A DNA stretch of 38,062 nucleotides from NCBI GenBank assembly GCA_019456225.1, contig VRUI01000049.1, positions 1 through 38,062 on the forward strand, written 5' to 3'. The DNA is from Planctomycetota bacterium (GTDB lineage: Bacteria; Planctomycetota; Phycisphaerae; Sedimentisphaerales; Anaerohalosphaeraceae). The number at the start of each line of letters is the position of its first letter. The stretch's first letter is position 1. The notes under the pieces were generated by a model. It had not been told where the DNA came from, did no database searches, and saw only the letters and a list, made by a program, of their open reading frames with translations. Below, in pieces: positions 27,753 through 37,939 of the stretch. A program made the translations under genes and the position numbers.

Positions 27753-28541
27753 TTACAGGGCGGATTTCACTTCTTTTATAAAGTCTGAGATCTCCTTTGT
27801 CATCGCTGCTATGTCACCGAGGTTGTTTTCGATCATCTTTACAATTTTGCTGCCTATGATCACTCCGTCGGCGCCGGCGTCGGCGACTTGTTTGGCCTGG
27901 TCGGCCGAGGAGATTCCGAAACCTACACACACCGGCGTATCCGTGATAGCCTTTAGCCTTGCGATAAGCGGTTTTACCATGTCTGACAATGCGCTTCTCG
28001 CTCCGGTAACTCCCAGCGTCGAGACTGTGTAGATGAAACCGGTGGATTTTTCGGCGATGATCTTTGCACGGTCGTCTCGTGTGTTGGGGGTTACCATGAA
28101 CACTGTTTCCAGTTCGGCTTTTTCGGCGGCTGGGATCACTTCGTCGGCGTCGTCTATGCTGAGGTCGGCGATTAGAATGCTCGATCCGCCGGCGGCTTTG
28201 AAGTCCGCGAAGAATTTTTCGGTACCATACTGGAATACGAGGTTGTAATAAATGAGCAGCCCGACGGGGACCGGTTTGTAGTCGGTCACCAGTTTGATGA
28301 ATTCGAGTCCGCGGTCTACTGTCATGCCGGACTTTATCGCGCGGATGTCGGCGGCCTGGATGGTTGGACCGTCTGCGATGGGGTCGGAAAATGCTATGCC
28401 CAGTTCCAGTACGTCTGCGCCCGCGTCGATAGCCGATTTCACTAAGCCCAGGCTCGTGTCAAAATCAGGGTCGCCTATTACGAAAAACGGGATCAGAACT
28501 GCTCTGTCCAGACTTGCAAAAGTTTCTTTATATGTAGCCAT
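27753..28541 (-). CDS. trpA: Tryptophan synthase alpha chain
   Basis: TrpA cleaves indole-glycerol phosphate to indole and glyceraldehyde 3-phosphate, and works in an alpha2-beta2 complex with TrpB. The 262-residue protein shows LIPFFVIGDPDFDTS, VLELGIAFSDPIADGPTIQ with catalytic Glu46 and Asp57 (Glu49 and Asp60 in E. coli), and ISSADQAKQVADAGADGVIIGS near the C-terminus. The ATG at 28541 follows AAGGA, so the longer frame (from 28568) is not used. It follows trpB by 36 bases, an interval filled by a heptamer array, and is the last gene of the operon. Confidence 0.95.
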   Translation of the reverse strand: MATYKETFASLDRAVLIPFFVIGDPDFDTSLGLVKSAIDAGADVLELGIAFSDPIADGPTIQAADIRAIKSGMTVDRGLEFIKLVTDYKPVPVGLLIYYNLVFQYGTEKFFADFKAAGGSSILIADLSIDDADEVIPAAEKAELETVFMVTPNTRDDRAKIIAEKSTGFIYTVSTLGVTGARSALSDMVKPLIARLKAITDTPVCVGFGISSADQAKQVADAGADGVIIGSKIVKMIENNLGDIAAMTKEISDFIKEVKSAL

Positions 28542-28551
28542 TCGAATCCTT

Positions 28552-28579
28552 AAATCATAAATTATCAATCATAAATGTC
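28552..28579. repeat. Heptamer array between trpB and trpA
   Basis: AAATCAT, AAATTAT, CAATCAT, AAATGTC: four degenerate 7-base units. The array touches the trpB stop codon (28578-28580) and ends about ten bases before the trpA start, so it fills the intercistronic gap. Confidence 0.5.
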
Positions 28580-29750
28580 AAACCGGTGAATGCTCTTCTA
28601 CTATTCCTACGTCTTTGTCGCCTCTGCCGGACAGGTTGGCGATGATGGTGGTATCGGCGGAGAATTTGCCCTTCTGCTGCACCAGCCATGTCAAAGCGTG
28701 GGTACTTTCCAGTGCCGGGATTATGCCCTCTAGTTTTGTAAAGAGGTGGAATGTGTCGAGGACGTCTTTGTCTTCTACGGAAACGTACTCGGCGCGACCG
28801 GCGTCTTTTAGCATGCAATGCTCCGGGCCGACGGCGGGATAGTCGAGGCCTGCCGAGATAGATTCGGTCTCGTGGACCTGCCCCTCTTTGTCCTGCAGGA
28901 GGTAGCTCTTTGCTCCGTGGAAAATTCCGATAGTACCGGCAACGAGTGTCGCAGCGTGTTCGCCTGTGTCCAGGCCGTGGCCGGCTGGTTCTACGCCGAT
29001 CAGCTTTACGTCTTTGTCATCGATGAACCCGGAGAATATTCCCATCGCGTTACTGCCGCCGCCGACGCAGGCAACTACCATGTCCGGCAGCGAGCCGGTT
29101 TCCTTTAGTACCTGCTCGTGTGCTTCCTTTCCTATCGGCGACTGGAAGTGCTTTACGATCGTCGGGAACGGGTGCGGTCCGCAGACTGTTCCGAATATGT
29201 AGAATGTGTCTTCCACGTGGCTGGTCCAGTACCGCAGAGCGTCGTTGATGGCGTCTTTTAGCGTGCCTGAACCGGCTGTGATCGGCACGACCTCGGCGCC
29301 GCAAAGCTTCATCTTGTGGACGTTTACGCTTTGCCTTTCGACGTCGACGGCACCCATGAATATCTTTGTTTCAAGCCCGAACAAAGCACCGGCCATAGCC
29401 GTCGCCAGACCGTGCTGACCTGCGCCGGTCTCTGCGATGATCTTCTTTTTGCCCATGTATTTAGCGAGCAAACCCTGGCCGAGTGTGTTGTTTGTCTTGT
29501 GTGCTCCGCCGTGGAGGAGGTCCTCGCGTTTTATGTAGACGCGAAAACCAACGTACTCGCTGAACCTTGACGCATAGTACAACGGGGTTGGGCGGCCGGC
29601 GTAGTTTTTGTATAGATTGTCGAGGTCGGCGACGAATTTTGGATCGTCTTTGTAATGCAAAAATGCCGCTTCGATGTCTTCCAAGGCCGGTATAAGCACC
29701 TCCGGCACATAGAAACCGCCGAACTGCCCGAATCTTCCTTTTTCTATCAT
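28578..29750 (-). CDS. trpB: Tryptophan synthase beta chain
   Basis: PLP-dependent subunit that joins indole and serine to make tryptophan; 390 residues. The PLP Schiff-base lysine is Lys85 in [26 protein letters not shown] carries the catalytic Glu. The phosphate-binding loop is [29 protein letters not shown] and the C-terminal LESTHALTW complete the TrpB1 pattern. The start is the ATG at 29750 (GGAG ten bases upstream); a TTG at 29759 lies too close to that site. It is co-transcribed with trpF upstream and trpA downstream. Confidence 0.96.
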
Positions 29751-29779
29751 TCTAATCAAACTCCAAAAATAAAGTAGCC

Positions 29780-29829
29780 TCGGCCTTAAGGCCGATTCCT
29801 CAATTCTTAATTCGTAATTCGTAATTTGG
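29780..29829. repeat. TCGGCC hairpin plus heptamer array between trpF and trpB
   Basis: TCGGCC-TTAA-GGCCGA (29780-29795) is followed by AATTCTT, AATTCGT, AATTCGT, AATTTGG (29802-29829), 7 bases each. The gap is 92 bases in an otherwise tight operon, so the element appears to have been inserted. Confidence 0.7.
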
Positions 29830-29842
29830 CATTGTCAATACC

Positions 29843-30466
29843 CTAGCCTCTTACGTGTTTTATGTTGTCGAAAAGTTTTTGCATTTTTTCGTGATCTTTC
29901 TTGCCGGGACTCGACTCGATTCCGCTGCAAATATCTATTCCGTAAGCGCCTACTTCGACGGCTTCTACGGCGTTTTCCGGGGTGATGCCCCCTGCCAGGA
30001 AAACTCGTGTCTGAAGCCTTCTGATCAGGTTCCAGTCGAATTTTTGTCCCGTTCCGCCATACTCCTCGGGATGGAAGGCGTCGAGAAGTACCGCATCTGT
30101 ATAAAAAGTATTTGCCTTTTCGATGTCGGCGGCGTCTTTGATACGAATAGCCTTCATAACCTTCGAACTTATCCATCGAAGTGCGTCACAATACTCCGGT
30201 GTTTCGTCACCGTGGATCTGTACCCAGTTAAGGAAGCACAGTTTCGCGACTTCCCTGACATGCTCGCCGGCGGCGTTTACAAATATCCCGGCAGTGTCGA
30301 CAAAAGTCGGCAGCTTATTGATGATCTGACGGGCCTGTTCGCCGGTAACATACCTCTTGCTCTGGGGATAGAAATTAAACCCGAGCAGATCGGCACCCAT
30401 CTCAATAGCCGCCAAAGCGTCTTCAACATTGGTAATTCCGCAAATTTTAACTTTTACTGCAATCAA
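29843..30466 (-). CDS. trpF: Phosphoribosylanthranilate isomerase
   Basis: TrpF performs the Amadori rearrangement of phosphoribosylanthranilate to CdRP. The 207-residue TIM barrel has KVKICGITNVEDA with the catalytic Cys9, LLGFNFYPQSKRYV, VQIHGDETPEYC, VLLDAFHPEEYGGTG (catalytic Asp) and FLAGGITPENAVEAV. The start is TTG (30464-30466) with GAGG six bases upstream; no ATG occurs before the catalytic motif. The gene lies between trpD and trpB. No separate or fused TrpC domain is present, although trpC usually sits beside trpF. Confidence 0.93.
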   Translation of the reverse strand: MIAVKVKICGITNVEDALAAIEMGADLLGFNFYPQSKRYVTGEQARQIINKLPTFVDTAGIFVNAAGEHVREVAKLCFLNWVQIHGDETPEYCDALRWISSKVMKAIRIKDAADIEKANTFYTDAVLLDAFHPEEYGGTGQKFDWNLIRRLQTRVFLAGGITPENAVEAVEVGAYGIDICSGIESSPGKKDHEKMQKLFDNIKHVRG

Positions 30467-30475
30467 TTTTTACCT

Positions 30476-30496
30476 CGTAAGTCGTAAGTCGTAAAT
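30476..30496. repeat. Heptamer array CGTAAGT between trpD and trpF
   Basis: CGTAAGT, CGTAAGT, CGTAAAT: three 7-base units filling most of the 34-base gap, directly next to the trpF ribosome-binding site. Confidence 0.6.
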
Positions 30497-30500
30497 CGGA

Positions 30501-31514
30501 TTATTCATTTGTTATTTTTATTAACATTTGTAATGCTTTATTGGCTTTTCCGCAGGTAATCGATTCTTCTGATTTTTTTATTGCTGTTTCGAAGTTATCG
30601 GCAATACCTGCTGCTATTATAGCTGCGGCGGCGTTTAATACCACAATATCTTTTTTCGGACCGGTCTCTTTCCCTTCTAGTATATCCCGGACGATTTGGG
30701 CATTTGTCTGGGCGTCCGCTCCTTTCAAATCGTCAAAACTTGCAGGCTTCATCGAAAAATCTTGCGGTTTAATTTCCATCGGAGTAATTTCGCCGCCCTT
30801 TAAGTGCAGAATCTTCGTCGGCGAGATCGTGCTGATCTCGTCAAGTCCGTCACTGTGGACGACCATAGCATGCTTTATGCCAAGGCGTTTTAGTATCTCG
30901 GCGATCTTGTCCATTAGCGTGACGTCTGCGACACCCATGACCTGTGCGGTCGCTCTTGCCGGGTTTGCCAGCGGCCCCAGAATATTAAACGCCGTCCTGA
31001 ACCCGAGCTCCTTACGGACGGGCTGAACATACTTCATCGCCGGGTGGTACATCGGGGCGAACATAAAACCGATATTGGCTTCTTTGATGCAGCGGGCAAC
31101 TACCTCCGGGCCGGGGGCGATGTTAACTCCGAGAGCCTCTAAAACGTCTGCCGAACCGCAATTACTGGTTATCCCGCGATTTCCGTGCTTGGCGACAAAA
31201 ACACCGGCGCCAGCAGCGACAAAAGCGGCAGCGGTGGAAATATTGAAAGTCTTAAACTTTGCACCGCCCGTTCCGCAGGTGTCTACGAGATTGTCAATCC
31301 CGGTTTCGACCTTAACGGCATGGTTTCTAAGCGATCCGGCAAGACCTGCGAGTTCTTCGATGGTTTCACCCTTAATTCGCAAGGCGGTAAGGAAAGCTGC
31401 TACCTGGGCCGGGGGTACATCGCCGGCGAAAACAGTATCCAGTAATTCGCCAGCCTCTTCGAATGTGAGATCGTTCTGTGCCAATAGTTTTTCAATGTAT
31501 TGTTTTATTGCCAT
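30501..31514 (-). CDS. trpD: Anthranilate phosphoribosyltransferase
   Basis: TrpD transfers phosphoribose from PRPP to anthranilate. The 337-residue protein shows the N-terminal helical domain (LTFEEAGELLDTVFAG) and the PRPP loop LVDTCGTGGAKFKTFNIST. KHGNRGITSNCGSADVLEALG, the anthranilate-side MFAPMYHPAMKYVQPVRKEL, and HSDGLDEIS complete the pattern. AAAGGA precedes the ATG by 7 bases. It is a stand-alone trpD, not fused to trpG as in enterics. It follows trpG by 52 bases. Confidence 0.96.
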   Translation of the reverse strand: MAIKQYIEKLLAQNDLTFEEAGELLDTVFAGDVPPAQVAAFLTALRIKGETIEELAGLAGSLRNHAVKVETGIDNLVDTCGTGGAKFKTFNISTAAAFVAAGAGVFVAKHGNRGITSNCGSADVLEALGVNIAPGPEVVARCIKEANIGFMFAPMYHPAMKYVQPVRKELGFRTAFNILGPLANPARATAQVMGVADVTLMDKIAEILKRLGIKHAMVVHSDGLDEISTISPTKILHLKGGEITPMEIKPQDFSMKPASFDDLKGADAQTNAQIVRDILEGKETGPKKDIVVLNAAAAIIAAGIADNFETAIKKSEESITCGKANKALQMLIKITNE

Positions 31515-31544
31515 TGTGTTGTCCTTTGTTATTGCGTCTTATCG

Positions 31545-31560
31545 GGGAGCTCGCGCTCCC
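31545..31560. repeat. Hairpin in the trpG-trpD gap
   Basis: GGGAGC-TCGC-GCTCCC. The flanking TATCGGGGAGCT recurs at 37971-37982 near the right edge, so this may be a dispersed repeat. It leaves the operon transcript intact as far as can be judged. Confidence 0.5.
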
Positions 31561-31566
31561 GCGCTT

Positions 31567-32154
31567 TTATTTTTTTGCTGCTATTTTTATTATGTTTTCC
31601 ATTATTTTTCCGCCGGTCGGGGTTAGAATGCTTTCCGGGTGGAACTGTACTCCGTAGATCGGCAGGTTTTTGTGCTGAATTCCCATTACAACGCCTTCAT
31701 AGTTAGCGGTCTCTTCCAGGCATTCCGGCAGAGTCATCGCACAGAGGCTATGATACCTGCCTGCATGGAGGGGATTTTCCAGCCCCTCAAAAACTCCCTT
31801 TGACGTGTGGGTAATCTTGGAGCTTTTGCCATGCATCACATCCGGAGCATGCCCGATCTTACCGCCGAAATACTGAACAATCGACTGGTGCCCGAGGCAG
31901 ACGCCGAAGATCGGCAGCTTGTCCCTGAAGTGATCCAAAGCGGCAAGGGTGACACCGGCTTTGTCGGGAGTGCCGGGACCTGGAGACAGCAGCAGCAGAT
32001 CGGGGGCAAACTCGGCGGCGACTCTTATGATGTCTTCCAGAGGTGTATCTGCCCGATAGACCTTTGTAGGACAATCGCGTTTGCCGAACTCGTCAACGAG
32101 ATTATAAGTAAACGAATCAAAATTATCTATGAACAATACTTTTATTTTTTCCAT
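31567..32154 (-). CDS. trpG: Anthranilate synthase component II (glutamine amidotransferase)
   Basis: TrpG releases ammonia from glutamine for TrpE. The 195-residue class-I amidotransferase has FIDNFDSFTYNLVDEF, LLLSPGPGTP, and the nucleophile Cys86 in FGVCLGHQSI, with His172 and Glu174 in GVQFHPESIL. TrpG and PabA cannot be distinguished by these motifs alone, but the place between trpE and trpD settles the assignment. The ribosome-binding site is weak (GAAGAG). The gene follows trpE by 82 bases, which contain a REP-like hairpin. Confidence 0.95.
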   Translation of the reverse strand: MEKIKVLFIDNFDSFTYNLVDEFGKRDCPTKVYRADTPLEDIIRVAAEFAPDLLLLSPGPGTPDKAGVTLAALDHFRDKLPIFGVCLGHQSIVQYFGGKIGHAPDVMHGKSSKITHTSKGVFEGLENPLHAGRYHSLCAMTLPECLEETANYEGVVMGIQHKNLPIYGVQFHPESILTPTGGKIMENIIKIAAKK

Positions 32155-32236: not shown

Positions 32237-33844
32237 TTATTGGCCTCTTATCGCTTTGAGGCATGAACCTGCTTTGTGCTGGGTTTCGTCGAATTCGCTT
32301 TTCGGGATGCTGTCGTGGACAATGCCGGCGCCTGCACGGATATACGCGGTATTGTCCTTGATCTGCAGGCTTCTGATGGTTATGCAGCTGTCAAACTGCC
32401 CGTCGACTGTCAGGTACATGACCGCTCCGCCGTAGTATCCCCTCTTATTTTTTTCCAGCCGCCGCAGTATCTTCATCGCCTCGATCTTGGGAGCACCGGT
32501 AAGCGTGCCCATATTCATCGTAGCAAGATAAGCACTCAGCGCGTCAAGGTCGCCTCTAAGCCGGCCTTTTACATTACTGACAAGATGCATAACGGATTCG
32601 TACTTTTCGGTGATAAGCATCTCGCTGACAACTCGCGATCCGGGCCTGGCAACACGGGCAATATCATTGCGGGCCAGGTCGACAAGCATCATGTGCTCGG
32701 CGAGCTCTTTACGGTCAAGCTTTAGTTCTGCTTCGTAGCGAACATCGGTATCCGGGTCGATCTTACCGTTTATCCTGCCTCGCGGTTTTGTACCGGCGAT
32801 AGGCCGTATCTCTACTTCCTGCCGGCCGGTACCGCTGACACGAAGATTAAGCTCGGGACTGGCTCCAAGCAAAACCGTATTCTGCGTATTCAGATAGAAC
32901 ATATACGGCGACGGGTTGAGCGCCCGCAAACGCCTGTAAACATCGAGCGGCTCGTCGGGGCAAGGTTCGGTGATCGTCCTGCTTAGAACGCCCTGGAAAA
33001 TATCACCCTCTATTATATGCTCCTTAGCCACCGCCACCATCTGTTCGTAAGCGGCTTGCTGGGTATCGGTAGAAGCTGCGGGCAATGCACCCTCAAATTT
33101 TCTGGCTTCAGGAGCATCGAGCGCCAATGCCTGGAAATACCGCTCAAGTGCCTTCTCGGCATCTGCGATAATCTCCTGACGGTCGCCGTCTGTAATTAGT
33201 ACGTTTACAACGATATGCCCGCTCCCGGTGCTGTGGTCCATAATGAAAATATTGTCGGCGAAATATAATTCGTAATCGGGATTCTTCAGGACATCGCTTT
33301 CGTTAGCCGGAAGCTTTTCGAACTGGTCGATAAAATCATAACTAAGCGCACCAAGCAAACCGCATGTAACGCGGAAGGGCTTGCTGGCAAGCTTAAATGC
33401 AAACGCGACGGCACGAATAACGTCCATCTGGTTGGTGCTTTTCAGACGGGCCTCTTCATCGAGCCTGGCCTGGCTTTCCTTAATAGTTCCCGATATACTC
33501 TCGTCGGCAAATTCAACCGAACTGCAAAAATCAAACCGCGACTTATCAGCCGACAGAAAACCGATCATCCGGCGGCCCGTCTCGCTGAGTGCCTTGATAG
33601 TAAAATCAGTTCCGGTGCCGGTAAGATACAGAGCAGGATTGGCGGTACCAAAGGTAAGCTCGCCCTGACCCTGGCCCTCCTGGTCGAGATGGTCCTTCGA
33701 CTCAAACAGGCAGGAATTTTCCGCACGCCCATAATCCGACAGTTTCGCGAAGAACTCGACGGGACAATCGATATCGATATCCCGAACGATCGGGATGATA
33801 TCTCCCGCGTTGGCCTCAAGTATCTGCTCACGATAATCACTCAT
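32237..33844 (-). CDS. trpE: Anthranilate synthase component I
   Basis: TrpE converts chorismate and ammonia to anthranilate. The 535-residue protein has the feedback tryptophan-binding motif in NSCLFESKD (residues 47-49 FES, LLES in others), IFQGVLSRTITEP, IRPIAGTKPRGRI, LVDLARNDIARVA, the catalytic-domain motif MNMGTLTGAPKIEAM, and RAGAGIVHDSIPKSEFDET at the C-terminus. MNMGT-x-SGAPK-like wording is that of enteric TrpE rather than the MPAGTLSGAPK form I would expect in many other bacteria. GAGGA precedes the ATG. Its expression is controlled by an attenuator upstream. Confidence 0.96.
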   Translation of the reverse strand: MSDYREQILEANAGDIIPIVRDIDIDCPVEFFAKLSDYGRAENSCLFESKDHLDQEGQGQGELTFGTANPALYLTGTGTDFTIKALSETGRRMIGFLSADKSRFDFCSSVEFADESISGTIKESQARLDEEARLKSTNQMDVIRAVAFAFKLASKPFRVTCGLLGALSYDFIDQFEKLPANESDVLKNPDYELYFADNIFIMDHSTGSGHIVVNVLITDGDRQEIIADAEKALERYFQALALDAPEARKFEGALPAASTDTQQAAYEQMVAVAKEHIIEGDIFQGVLSRTITEPCPDEPLDVYRRLRALNPSPYMFYLNTQNTVLLGASPELNLRVSGTGRQEVEIRPIAGTKPRGRINGKIDPDTDVRYEAELKLDRKELAEHMMLVDLARNDIARVARPGSRVVSEMLITEKYESVMHLVSNVKGRLRGDLDALSAYLATMNMGTLTGAPKIEAMKILRRLEKNKRGYYGGAVMYLTVDGQFDSCITIRSLQIKDNTAYIRAGAGIVHDSIPKSEFDETQHKAGSCLKAIRGQ

Positions 33845-33900
33845 ATTTTTTTCCTCTAAATTGTTAAACCGTAATCATAATTCCTATTCGCGAAAAATGC

Positions 33901-33939
33901 AAAAAAAAACGCGACCTATTTGTAACAGGACGCGTTTTT
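33901..33939 (-). terminator. Attenuator terminator upstream of trpE
   Basis: On the minus strand, AAAAACGCGTCC pairs with GGTCGCGTTTTT around an 11-base loop (one T-T mismatch). A run of nine T follows. It lies between the trp leader peptide and trpE, so transcription would stop here unless the leader ribosome stalls. I cannot resolve the alternative antiterminator pairing by eye. One candidate uses GAATTCTT with AAGATTC, next to the stem. Confidence 0.85.
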
Positions 33940-33975
33940 AGAATCTTAAATTAAATATGTATGCAAGAATTCCGC

Positions 33976-34041
33976 TTACCCGTCGTTTGCCTCGACCGGC
34001 CAACCCCACCAATTGGTATTTTTGCGGTTATTCTTTAACAT
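33976..34041 (-). CDS. trpL: trp leader peptide with WWGW
   Basis: A 21-codon frame encodes MLKNNRKNTN followed by WWGWPVEANDG, with three Trp codons in four positions, then TAA. It is placed between a strong promoter and a terminator just before trpE, the layout of a ribosome-mediated attenuator. When charged tRNA-Trp is scarce, the ribosome would stall at the Trp codons and prevent the terminator from forming. The ATG is only 8 bases after the -10 box and has no Shine-Dalgarno, so the transcript likely starts at or next to the ATG. I recognised it from codons, not homology. Confidence 0.9.
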   Translation of the reverse strand: MLKNNRKNTNWWGWPVEANDG

Positions 34042-34049
34042 AGAACTGC

Positions 34050-34078
34050 ATTAAAGCACATTAAACCCATTTTGTCAA
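34050..34078 (-). promoter_or_regulatory. trp operon promoter
   Basis: Minus strand TTGACA (34073-34078) and TTTAAT (34050-34055) are separated by 17 bases, an almost consensus sigma-70 promoter. Transcription should start near 34041-34043, that is at the first base of trpL. I see no TrpR-type palindrome overlapping it. Confidence 0.85.
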
Positions 34079-34144: not shown

Positions 34145-34202
34145 TCTGCTTAAATGAACAGCATGGGCACAGCCCATCCTACCGACTTTTATGAGGTATT
34201 TG

Positions 34203-35015
34203 ATGTCAACAGTAGAGAAAATTCGTCATATCGGGGCAGAACTCAAGGGGCATGCTCCTTTTACAACCGTCGGTGCCCTGCTCGGCATCGCTTTTATGCT
34301 CATCTTTCATAAGATCGGCAGCCCGGAACCGAAGACCTTGTTTATGATTTTCCACCCGACTCATGTGCTCCTCAGCGCAATGGTAACAGCCTCGCTTTTT
34401 CGCATCCATGAGAATAAAAAGAACATTCTGCTTATAATTGCCATAGGTTACTTCGGTTCGATCGGCGTTGCGACTCTCAGCGACTGCGTCCTTCCGTATA
34501 TCGGCGAAAGACTGTTTGGGCTGGACATACCAGCGCATGCGGCTCTTCATGCAGAACCCGAATCGGATGAACATGATGAGCATGCAGGCCACGGTCATGA
34601 AGAACACGCCAACCATGATGAACACGCCGGGCACGGCCTTCACCTTGGGTTTATCGAACACTGGTATATAGTAAATCCGGCTGCGGCATTGGGGATCCTG
34701 ATCGCTTTTCTATTGCCAAGAACAAAATCACCGCATGCACTGCATGTTCTGGTAAGCACGTGGGCAACTTCGGCGCATATGATGATGGAGTCTGCCGATG
34801 CATTTACCGGATTTGAAATCATGGGCGCATTCGTTGTGCTCTTTATCGCCGTCTGGCTGCCGTGCTGTATCAGCGATATAATCTTCCCGCTGCTGTTCGT
34901 AAAAAGCGATCTGGAACTGACAAGCTCGTGCGTTTGTACGGACCATGAGCACCACAGCCACAAACATACGCACCAGCATACCGACAAATGCGACAGCGAG
35001 GACGAATCTAAATGA
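34203..35015 (+). CDS. His-rich membrane protein in a Fur/Zur-type operon
   Basis: A 270-residue integral membrane protein with about six hydrophobic segments (FTTVGALLGIAFMLIF, THVLLSAMVTASLF, ILLIIAIGYFGSIGVATL, NPAAALGILIAFLL, EIMGAFVVLFIAVWLPCC, DIIFPLLFV). A loop near residues 110-140 is packed with His, Asp and Glu (DEHDEHAGHGHEEHANHDEHA), and the tail has CVCTDHEHHSHKHTHQHTDKC. These stretches look like metal-binding sites. I do not recognise a named family. The start ATG 34203 has GAGG six bases upstream; an earlier in-frame ATG (34191) lies inside that site's region. It overlaps the next gene (ATGA), which encodes a Fur-type regulator, so a role in zinc or another divalent metal is likely, either transport, storage or sensing. 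Confidence 0.8.
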   Translation: MSTVEKIRHIGAELKGHAPFTTVGALLGIAFMLIFHKIGSPEPKTLFMIFHPTHVLLSAMVTASLFRIHENKKNILLIIAIGYFGSIGVATLSDCVLPYIGERLFGLDIPAHAALHAEPESDEHDEHAGHGHEEHANHDEHAGHGLHLGFIEHWYIVNPAAALGILIAFLLPRTKSPHALHVLVSTWATSAHMMMESADAFTGFEIMGAFVVLFIAVWLPCCISDIIFPLLFVKSDLELTSSCVCTDHEHHSHKHTHQHTDKCDSEDESK

Positions 35016-35566: not shown

Positions 35567-37915
35567 TCACTTAACTGCTTGAAGGGCTGTTACCATTGCT
35601 GCCGAGTAACTTGTTCCGTTGTAGAGTTGGGTTTTGCCTCTTTCACCACCTGCCAGGATCAAGGTTCCCGGTGCAGTCGTATCGACCGTCTTTTTGCCAT
35701 AGTTTGTAAAGGGAAGCCATTGCTTTTTTGCTTTGTCATAATACGTCCCCGGTTTGCCGGCGGCATCGGATGCGGCAACGGCGATTATGTTTTTGCCCGG
35801 AAGTGATGCCGGAAAGACCGGGCTGCGGTCAATGTCGACATTGTCGTTACCGGCGGCACACACAATAATCACGCCCTTTTTTTCAAGTTCTTTCCAGAGA
35901 GGTATCCGGCTAAGCTCGGCAAGTTGAGCAGCGGTTACATACGTTCCAAAACTGCAATTGATAACCTTCGCGCCGCAGTCGGCGACATACTTGATCGCGT
36001 CTATCACCTTGGACAGGTCACCCTCTAAAGGCTGCTGATATCTGCTAGAAGAATCGCCGGCCGACAAAACTACTGCGGTGACGATCTTAATCTGCGGCGC
36101 GATCCCTATGACATCGTGGTCGGCGCCGGAGACCCTTGCCGCCATCACAGAAGCCAGCGCCGTGCCATGGTTGAACTGATACGGGTTGCGGCAAAGCCGG
36201 TTGCTTGCGTCGGAGAAATTCCAGCCTCTTACGTCGTCTGCAAATCCATTGCCGTCGTCGTCGATACCGTTACCTGGGATTTCACGCGGGTTTATCCAGG
36301 CGGCTTTGGATATTCGCCTGTCCTTCCAATCTACCGGACCGTCGACAAGGCCTATCAGGACGGCTGGCTTATGAATTCTCTTCAGGTACCCGGGCGCAAT
36401 GCCGAGATCGTTACCAGCGGCGAAACGGTTACGCAACGCCCATTGCACCTCTGAAAGCCGTGTTGGGGGCAGGGACATGGAATACATTTTGATGTTTGGA
36501 GCGACGATGTATTTTCTTTGGTCCTGAAACTCGGCGAGACGGCCGGCGGCGATCTTGATGTAATTGTCACTGCCCTTTGGGAAAACCAGGTATCCGTCGA
36601 CAGCCGAATTGCCGCCGCGTTCATTTGCGCGATGCAGCGACAACTGCGAAGGGGAAAGCGTATTGCGGGTAAGCTGCTTGTATCTGTGGACTATTCGATC
36701 GCTTACGTTGACGCCGATATGATCATAATCGAACTCAGTGCCTTGCAATTTTTGCCATGGTACCGGCGTATTATTATCTGCAGCGGTTGCATTGTACCGC
36801 CGGCTCGCCGTCATTACTATCAGCTCATCTGTAGTCCACTGACCGGGTTTCAGCAGCTTGGCAAGGCCGGTAATATTTGCGTACTCTTCGGGCGGGGCCG
36901 CTTCGACTCCTATTGCCTTGACTCCGGCGGTTAGTTTTAGGAAACCGGCATTGTCGATGGATTTCGAGGTGACTCCGCTAAGCCTTAACGGGCTGAATGT
37001 TGCTATCGCTTTTACGATGGTCTCGCCGTATGGCGGTTCGATCGGAAAACGGAAGCCCATCTCTATTGAAGGAATCGTAAGGGCTTTTTCGGCGCGGACG
37101 AAAGCACTCTTTTGCCATTTGTTCGGAAGCAGCAAAGACATCTGCCCGGCACTGTCGACTGTGATCAGCGTGACGTAACAATCTCTCTCGGCGGAGACGG
37201 TGAACTTTATGTACTCCCCCTGAAAATAGACCTGTCGGCTGGAGGCGGTTTTTATGCTGACTGCAAAATCCGGAGTTGGGTTTACCGCATCCAGAAGGTC
37301 GTTGCCGGTGAACTGTGTGCCAGGTGCGCCGTTTTCTCCCTCGGATTCGCTGCCCTTGCCAAGCGAAAGCAAAACGACGAGCTCAGCGACCTTGTCCGGC
37401 CATTGTTTTATCGAAGTAAATTCGACTCGCTTTCGTCTCTGGACGTTTCCATTGACGCAATCGACGAGCCTTGCACTTAACGCATAACTGCCGCCGAGTT
37501 TTGAGATCGTACCGATGACCACATAGTCTACTCTCGACAGCTTACCGAACCTGGCCGAACCTTGCGGGCTATTGACAAGCAGCGACTCCTGGAAACCCTT
37601 CTCTTCGAGCAGTTCCTTTAAATGCTGCCTCTCAAAAACTTCATACTCCCGAGAATCGATCTCGGTGACGAAAGCATCGCAGATAATTGCACCGGTATCG
37701 GTGCCCATGTTGAAACTTTCGCCCAGTACCTTAAAGGGCAAGACGGCGATTGCCGGCTTATCAGGCTTATCTTTTTTGCCAGGAGTGACGGGAAGAACCT
37801 TTGGCCCGGGCAGTTCGATTATCTCGAGATCGTCATCAATAACAGCGTCTGTATCAATGACCGCAGCAGATACCAAACCTGCAACAAGGATAAGAGCTAT
37901 AACCGATGTTTTCAT
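35567..37915 (-). CDS. Secreted multidomain subtilisin-like serine peptidase
   Basis: About 782 residues with a signal peptide (TSVIALILVAGLVSA). Residues 45-170 look CsgG-like (KPAIAVLPFKVLGES, DYVVIGTISKLGGSYALSARL). Residues about 205-300 fit DUF4384 (VYFQGEYIKFTVSAERDCYV, LLLPNKWQKSA). The C-terminal peptidase S8 domain has Asp near 524 in GLVDGPVDWKDRR, His near 583 in FNHGTALASVMAAR, and Ser near 768 in YNGTSYSAAMVTA. Calcium-loop-like NGIDDDGNGFADDV lies between Asp and His. The Asp motif (DGPVD) is unlike the usual DTG. The start at 37915 follows AGGAGTAAAACA; the longer frame from 37939 lacks a site. It may act at the outer membrane or periplasm; substrates unknown. Confidence 0.85.
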   Translation of the reverse strand: MKTSVIALILVAGLVSAAVIDTDAVIDDDLEIIELPGPKVLPVTPGKKDKPDKPAIAVLPFKVLGESFNMGTDTGAIICDAFVTEIDSREYEVFERQHLKELLEEKGFQESLLVNSPQGSARFGKLSRVDYVVIGTISKLGGSYALSARLVDCVNGNVQRRKRVEFTSIKQWPDKVAELVVLLSLGKGSESEGENGAPGTQFTGNDLLDAVNPTPDFAVSIKTASSRQVYFQGEYIKFTVSAERDCYVTLITVDSAGQMSLLLPNKWQKSAFVRAEKALTIPSIEMGFRFPIEPPYGETIVKAIATFSPLRLSGVTSKSIDNAGFLKLTAGVKAIGVEAAPPEEYANITGLAKLLKPGQWTTDELIVMTASRRYNATAADNNTPVPWQKLQGTEFDYDHIGVNVSDRIVHRYKQLTRNTLSPSQLSLHRANERGGNSAVDGYLVFPKGSDNYIKIAAGRLAEFQDQRKYIVAPNIKMYSMSLPPTRLSEVQWALRNRFAAGNDLGIAPGYLKRIHKPAVLIGLVDGPVDWKDRRISKAAWINPREIPGNGIDDDGNGFADDVRGWNFSDASNRLCRNPYQFNHGTALASVMAARVSGADHDVIGIAPQIKIVTAVVLSAGDSSSRYQQPLEGDLSKVIDAIKYVADCGAKVINCSFGTYVTAAQLAELSRIPLWKELEKKGVIIVCAAGNDNVDIDRSPVFPASLPGKNIIAVAASDAAGKPGTYYDKAKKQWLPFTNYGKKTVDTTAPGTLILAGGERGKTQLYNGTSYSAAMVTALQAVK

Positions 37916-37939
37916 TGTTTTACTCCTGGCTTCATGCAC

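Follow-up and report, generated by a model that had tools for sequence, protein, structure and literature searches.

In the 38,062-nucleotide stretch of planctomycete DNA analysed here (the window), comparison of leader sequences indicates that the trpEGDFBA operon is very probably controlled by tryptophan supply through a ribosome-mediated transcription attenuator. The anatomy of the leader, its conservation, the covariation of three helices and a switch in silico were obtained by computation; from these we infer ribosome stalling, a leaderless start, termination and the dependence on tryptophan. The mechanism is of a known kind, namely ordinary, classical ribosome-mediated attenuation. The relevant features of the window are as follows.

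34050..34078, minus strand: promoter, TTGACA, 17-nt spacer and TTTAAT, read from the letters, with a counterpart (at least 9/12) in 76 of 77 loci scanned
34078-34073, minus strand: -35 element TTGACA, read from the sequence
34055-34050, minus strand: -10 element TTTAAT, read from the sequence
33976..34041, minus strand: leader peptide ORF, 21 codons plus TAA, MLKNNRKNTNWWGWPVEANDG; its ATG, at 34041, lies 8 nt past the -10 element
34000..34011, minus strand: putative regulatory Trp codons W11, W12, (G13) and W14; clustered Trp codons in relatives
33978-33976, minus strand: leader stop codon TAA
33993..33999, minus strand: region 1, CCGGUCG, directly 3' of the Trp codons, predicted partner of region 2 (minimum free energy fold; 1:2 covariation in relatives)
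33965..33985, minus strand: region 2, CGACGGG UAA GCGGAAUUCUU, around the leader stop, predicted partner of region 1 or region 3
33924..33939, minus strand: region 3, 5' arm of the terminator and predicted antiterminator partner
33901..33939, minus strand: region 3:4, predicted intrinsic terminator hairpin plus nine-T run, 15 pairs of which 6 are GC, -16.9 kcal/mol
33939-33905, minus strand: the hairpin itself, leading into the nine T at 33909-33901
32237..33844, minus strand: trpE, anthranilate synthase component I (profile NF010079, 492 bits, cut-off 471)
27753..32154, minus strand: trpG, trpD, trpF, trpB and trpA, the remainder of the operon (profile search)

These elements agree with the initial annotation, which had read from the letters a TTGACA-17-TTTAAT promoter, a 21-codon frame with W-W-G-W (the Trp codons 11, 12 and 14) and a stop, and a hairpin with nine T before trpE (ATG at 33844), all on the trpE strand and in the right order. 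Neither the promoter nor the terminator hairpin of the window was reported by a generic promoter/terminator scan; the promoter escaped it because the scan rule accepts a -10 element only with A as its second base. Folding of the stretch 33895-34053 of the window gave an energy z score of -3.8.

The operon runs in the order trpE-G-D-F-B-A; trpC is missing from it and was found on another contig, where the upstream region shows, by eye, no Trp-rich leader, so that a second attenuator at trpC was rejected. Upstream of the leader, an ORF at 34191-35015 runs divergent to trpE, so the terminator acts on the trp leader and cannot be that of an upstream gene. Between trpE and this ORF, a sequence of 25-30 nt (34156-34185, minus strand) with at least 24 other copies in the genome holds a small hairpin, ATGGGCTGTGCCCAT, and represents a dispersed intergenic repeat. 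Further along, a 790-residue ORF (35567-37939, minus strand) carries a subtilisin/mycosin-like protease domain at its C-terminus. The best solved relatives of the TrpE protein are 1i7q and 1i1q, which we take to be the Serratia and Salmonella proteins. The 318 bits scored by TrpE (32237-33844) with 1i7q, presumably an enteric-type TrpE, are as high as its scores with nearly all listed Planctomycetota outside the order (up to 370, mostly below 300, from programs that differ from the one used for 1i7q); this likeness may point to transfer or to an ancient paralogue.

The logic of the attenuator is displayed more clearly by relatives than by the window. Relatives were obtained by a TrpE search of named genomes, from which the best 80 of 270 loci were taken; 79 of the 80 are named as planctomycetes (Phycisphaerae, Sedimentisphaerales, Anaerohalosphaeraceae and others) and the last as an uncultured bacterium, in agreement with the Planctomycetota-like host proposed from the letters. 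Together with the window and locus L112 they make up 82 upstream regions, and 81 after removal of L036 with its 24 nt of upstream sequence. Of the 81 loci with enough upstream sequence, 79 combine a short frame bearing clustered Trp codons with a terminator downstream, and an intrinsic terminator stands between leader ORF and trpE in 79/79 loci analysed. The other two loci, L074 and L082, have kept the ORF with YWRRP or YWRRRW replacing the tandem Trp, and their terminators are present; the change from Trp to Arg codons is possibly a decay of attenuation.

Starts were assigned as the in-frame ATG nearest to 11 codons before the first Trp; at L042 this rule picked the second ATG, and the alignment takes the first in its place. 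With L059, whose leader start is masked by N, omitted from the start and alignment counts, and with L074 and L082 kept out of the alignments, 78 leaders remain. They contain 208 Trp codons, 2-4 per leader (3/21 codons in the window), where an assumed frequency of 1.2% would give about 18; they range from 15 to 28 residues in length and most commonly take the form M(K/R)QINRKNTxNWWWP(E/A/V)G. In three relatives, in-frame insertions of 21-24 nt before the Trp codons keep the frame (L064:1309-1471, L088:1271-1437, L060:1287-1448), which would be in line with translation of the leader ORF.

The promoter is tied closely to the leader start. Its counterpart before the leader ATG, found as listed above, compares with 2-9 of 70-78 at six shifted positions; the spacer measures 17 nt in 74 loci, and the distance from the -10 element to the ATG is 6-10 nt in 71/76. 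All 78 leaders start with ATG, the start having been chosen among in-frame ATGs; taken without that choice, the first ATG past the independently located best -10 element is in frame with the Trp codons, with no intervening stop, in 71/77. A 5-base Shine-Dalgarno match precedes 0/78 leaders versus 31/78 trpE starts, and a 4-base match 1/78 versus 56/78. Because the ATG lies so near the -10 element and a Shine-Dalgarno sequence is consistently absent, the leader peptide of the window and its relatives is probably translated leaderlessly. Two single-contig genomes of family f4 (L161, L162) instead carry AAGGA or AAGGG ahead of the leader ATG, so that leaderless translation need not hold throughout the order. 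A genome-wide habit of leaderless starts was considered and rejected, the strict promoter-to-ATG pattern occurring at 8 places in the window genome versus 2 for a reversed-pattern control; clustered Trp codons follow none of the 7 other matches, one of which opens a 230-residue ORF. The initial annotation had the leader anatomy right and missed both this probable leaderless start and the TrpR layer of relatives described below.

Among relatives, region 1 reads CCUGnnGGA directly after the Trp codons, region 2 reads UCCGRCAGGC around or past the leader stop, and the terminator is formed by region 3, GCAGCCUGUCGGA, and region 4, CAGGCUGC, with a T run. Two alignments were used: A1, with the 78 leaders, and A2, with 49 of the 77 relatives' leaders in A1 and the window left out. 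In A1, helix 1:2 is paired in 81.1% of cells versus at most 51.2% in slid registers, helix 2:3 in 90.5% versus at most 49.3%, and helix 3:4 in 95.9% versus at most 48.2%, values favoured over the slid registers by the definition of the structures from one sequence; two-sided changes affect 8/9, 8/10 and 6/8 pairs, respectively, in rows that share ancestry and are, hence, not independent. A shuffle control of the two-sided-change counts is weak for 2:3 (46/500) and 3:4 (83/500). RNAalifold applied to A2 picked 1:2 and 3:4 unaided. The three mutually exclusive helices all carry compensatory changes among relatives, which, along with the conserved Trp codons and terminator, is what the initial annotation had suggested looking for in an alignment of related trpE upstream regions.

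The window leader scores 80 bits (E 1.2e-15) with a covariance model built from the 49 relatives. With the model that includes the window (R1), the next best site in the genome reaches E 0.17, and the other matches of R1 there were rejected. Of 22 further upstream regions of the order, 21 are matched by the A2 model over its full length and on the trpE strand, and L163 is missed; 13 of the 21 have E values below 1e-6 and four more below 1e-3, and the remaining four (L160, L162, L279 and L280; E 0.005-0.03) do not surpass three partial hits on the other strand (E 0.001-0.02).

Switching was assessed by folding with the ribosome position masked. In the window, the predicted mean pairing of region 3 with upstream sequence is 0.87 with a stalled ribosome, 0.65 with none and 0.16 with a ribosome at the stop codon; the medians of the 78 leaders are 1.00, 0.67 and 0.62, and pairing exceeds 0.5 in 78/78, 60/78 and 46/78, respectively. 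The window would, thus modelled, behave as a switch, and the at-stop state is not cleanly separate in every relative. The antiterminator duplex between the region 3 arm and an upstream segment has a mean z of -3.2 over 79 loci, with at most 5 of 100 shuffles as good in 63/79; the window's own 2:3 duplex alone scores z 0.2, with 60/100 shuffles as good. Folding of the leader into alternatives, which the initial annotation had proposed, separated the states of the window under masking; for the isolated 2:3 pairing of the window the support is comparative in nature.

The proposed course of events would be as follows. RNA polymerase would start at the leader ATG or a few bases before it, and a ribosome would begin the 21-residue peptide at or near the RNA 5' end without a Shine-Dalgarno sequence. 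With tryptophan scarce, the ribosome would stall on W11, W12 or W14 and cover region 1; region 2 would then pair with region 3, no terminator would form, and transcription would read through into trpE. With tryptophan plentiful, the ribosome would reach the stop codon and cover region 2, region 3 would pair with region 4, and transcription would end at the T run.

A ribosome could also stall in another way, on a specific peptide that senses free tryptophan, as in TnaC, rather than on scarce charged tRNA-Trp. The recurrence of a WWWP core among relatives speaks for such nascent-peptide sensing; however, the Pro codon is explained by the pairing of region 1 (CCUG with CAGG), a DNA palindrome (see below) accounts for the x-R-N at the N-terminus in one subclade, and the other residues vary in a peptide whose length is not fixed. 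Moreover, the controlled genes are biosynthetic, so that induction by excess tryptophan would have the wrong sign. We regard this explanation as highly improbable and retain stalling for want of charged tRNA-Trp.

A further 97 genomes, contributing 99 regions upstream of trpE (62 plus 37), were examined for the spread of the leader; G270 and G311, both without a leader, are counted twice among the regions, and L146 and L152 among 64 regions and three of 40 that were too short are omitted. Seven genomes of the order carry another type of TrpE; a multi-Trp leader passes the strict rule in 6/7 of them, and in the remaining one (L160) a terminator follows an ORF with NWRYW. The attenuator, as recognised from these leaders, appears to accompany two distinct TrpE types in the order. 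Beyond the order, the strict leader rule is passed by 15 of 92 regions, against 1/99 on the reverse strand and a shuffle mean of 1.7/62, the latter for the 62-region sample only. The most convincing of these cases are in families f32, f64 and f17/f77/f59: in f32 a leader was found in 5/9 sampled (MNTRTNNFxWQWWT...SGWCAA and kin, with a hairpin before trpE), in f64 one leader passes the strict rule and a second region encodes a similar peptide, and in f17, f77 and f59 there are single or paired leaders with a hairpin by eye. The matches at L145, L159 and L232 look incidental, and no leader was found in the sampled members of f34, f52, f19 and f42.

A phylum-wide search with the model, under stricter filters and at E 0.01, gave matches in 12 of 294 genomes; four of these belong to the window's own family, in which it missed G001 and G016, and the distant matches in G082, G090, G151, G208 and G339 lie away from the listed trpE and that in G268 at trpE. 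For this reason an ORF search was used for leaders in distant families, on samples drawn among the trpE matches listed. On these comparisons, the trait is conserved in the order and patchy beyond it, in several distant families.

The controls also bear on the reading of the ORF as incidental and of the hairpin as a constitutive terminator or processing element that keeps basal trp expression low. Chance yields short ORFs and hairpins; against this, comparable ORFs are seldom seen in the controls (reverse strand 1/62 in the 62-region sample, with the shuffle mean given above), and the Trp codons, the promoter spacing, the absence of a Shine-Dalgarno sequence and the three exclusive helices are conserved together. 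Such a coincidence is, in our judgement, very unlikely. Least probable of all is a protein- or tRNA-sensing TRAP or T-box leader in place of a translated one: both control trp leaders in other phyla, yet an Rfam search of the whole window at gathering thresholds, with the T-box presumably among the families searched, matched only a tRNA and no family on the leader, and the 197-nt leader contains only 5 (G/U)AG triplets, far below the 9-11 spaced (G/U)AG repeats that TRAP needs, for which a TRAP-type leader was rejected. Ribosome-mediated attenuation is, accordingly, the reading kept in what follows.

In some relatives the leader may be combined with a repressor. Around the leader ATG of one subclade stands the palindrome GTTTCT-ATG-nnn-AGAAAC, exact in 8 loci (L015, L021, L037, L041, L049, L055, L067 and L075, 6 nt before the ATG) and with one mismatch in 4 more; it accounts for the x-R-N N-terminus of these leaders. 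GTTTCT-N6-AGAAAC also lies over the leader start or promoter in L161 and L163. The Trp repressor family PF01371 is present in 25 of 59 genomes searched. After removal of seven of the 59 (G017 and G020, no TrpE match; G019, G022, G023 and G031, partial or weak TrpE; G007, 4 nt upstream), 52 genomes with usable upstream sequence remained, in which the palindrome with at most two mismatches occurs in 23/23 genomes with TrpR versus 4/29 without (Fisher 5e-11, overstated because the genomes are related), and with at most one mismatch in 18/23 versus 3/29. Two of the two-mismatch sites, in G032 (with TrpR) and G052 (without), lie away from the promoter; the other three TrpR-less carriers, 68, 82 and 91% complete, have the palindrome at the promoter. 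G043 has a further palindrome 25 nt ahead of the TrpR-like domain itself. Given this co-occurrence, the palindrome is a candidate TrpR operator.

With the NCBI TrpR model, three of the proteins reach 50-65 bits, below its cut-off of 67, and with the YerC model 23-38; they are, hence, named TrpR-like only. The two genomes with Arg codons in place of the tandem Trp (loci L074 and L082; genomes G016 and G032) carry a TrpR-like gene. In the window genome, 95.8% complete, neither PF01371 nor TIGR01321 found a TrpR, and its one exact palindrome lies on another contig (C71) and is no more than the control. We lean, by a little, towards an old planctomycete module in which the 18-bp site of one subclade would serve as promoter end, TrpR operator and leaderless start at once, the window being repressor-less with the attenuator as its sole recognised trp control.

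Compared with known systems, the window leader resembles the E. coli trpL-trpE attenuator, which we take to be the Rfam family Trp_leader (RF00513), in its leader ORF with tandem Trp codons, its alternative helices and its intrinsic terminator before trpE. Unlike that system, it has no Rfam match and no Shine-Dalgarno sequence, its region 1 lies just past the Trp codons, its conserved sequences differ, and no TrpR was found in the genome. It would, by analogy, work like Trp_leader, as a matter of resemblance rather than membership in the sequence family.

A closer parallel in some respects is rnTrpL/peTrpL of Sinorhizobium meliloti, for which excerpts of PMC7298713 describe a leader RNA that starts at the leader ATG, tandem Trp codons and a trpE(G) operon free of transcription repression. 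The window leader shares the tandem Trp codons and would probably share the start at the ATG, and no TrpR was found in its genome; the S. meliloti leader, however, has an alphaproteobacterial sequence, and its RNA and peptide act in trans. Classical trp attenuators outside the Proteobacteria are likewise reported, in passages of PMC1262725, for Corynebacterium and Streptomyces; they hold two or three UGG codons, and their terminators are GC-rich. Their conserved triples are of the gGCC-rGCy-GGCC type, whereas those of planctomycetes are of the CCUG-CAGG-CCUG-CAGG type. In the Chlamydiae, members of the same superphylum, TrpR and a proposed Trp-rich leader, said to want robust support, are treated in parts of PMC3937554 and PMC6504234. 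Chlamydiae and some planctomycete relatives, thus, both combine TrpR or a TrpR-like protein with a Trp-rich leader, yet the chlamydial leader sits between trpR and trpB and is proposed and unproven, whereas the planctomycete leader precedes trpE and is found order-wide with covariation.

Planctomycetes are unmentioned in the main text of PMC2965389, and the passages of PMC4833913 (2016) consulted count leader genes in Planctomycetes generally and describe no trp attenuator there. The literature searched, outside which lie key surveys such as Merino et al. 2008, yielded no earlier description of a trp attenuator in Planctomycetota. It agrees, so far as it goes, with the suggestion of the initial annotation that this mode is undescribed in the phylum.

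The analysis extends ribosome-mediated attenuation to the Planctomycetota with comparative support instead of a single prediction. As the attenuator is conserved across relatives, a textbook form of control best known from other phyla appears to be long-established here, and interest is raised by its order-wide conservation, by a leader peptide whose start is probably leaderless and by the TrpR layer of sister lineages. For an RNA that is unmatched by Rfam, covariance models are now at hand. Finally, the order holds natural variation in the presence of a TrpR-like gene or none, in two TrpE types, in stop-codon positions and, in a few genomes, in the erosion of Trp to Arg codons, so that the evolution of layered trp control, and that of leader peptides with a probably leaderless start, can be tested directly.
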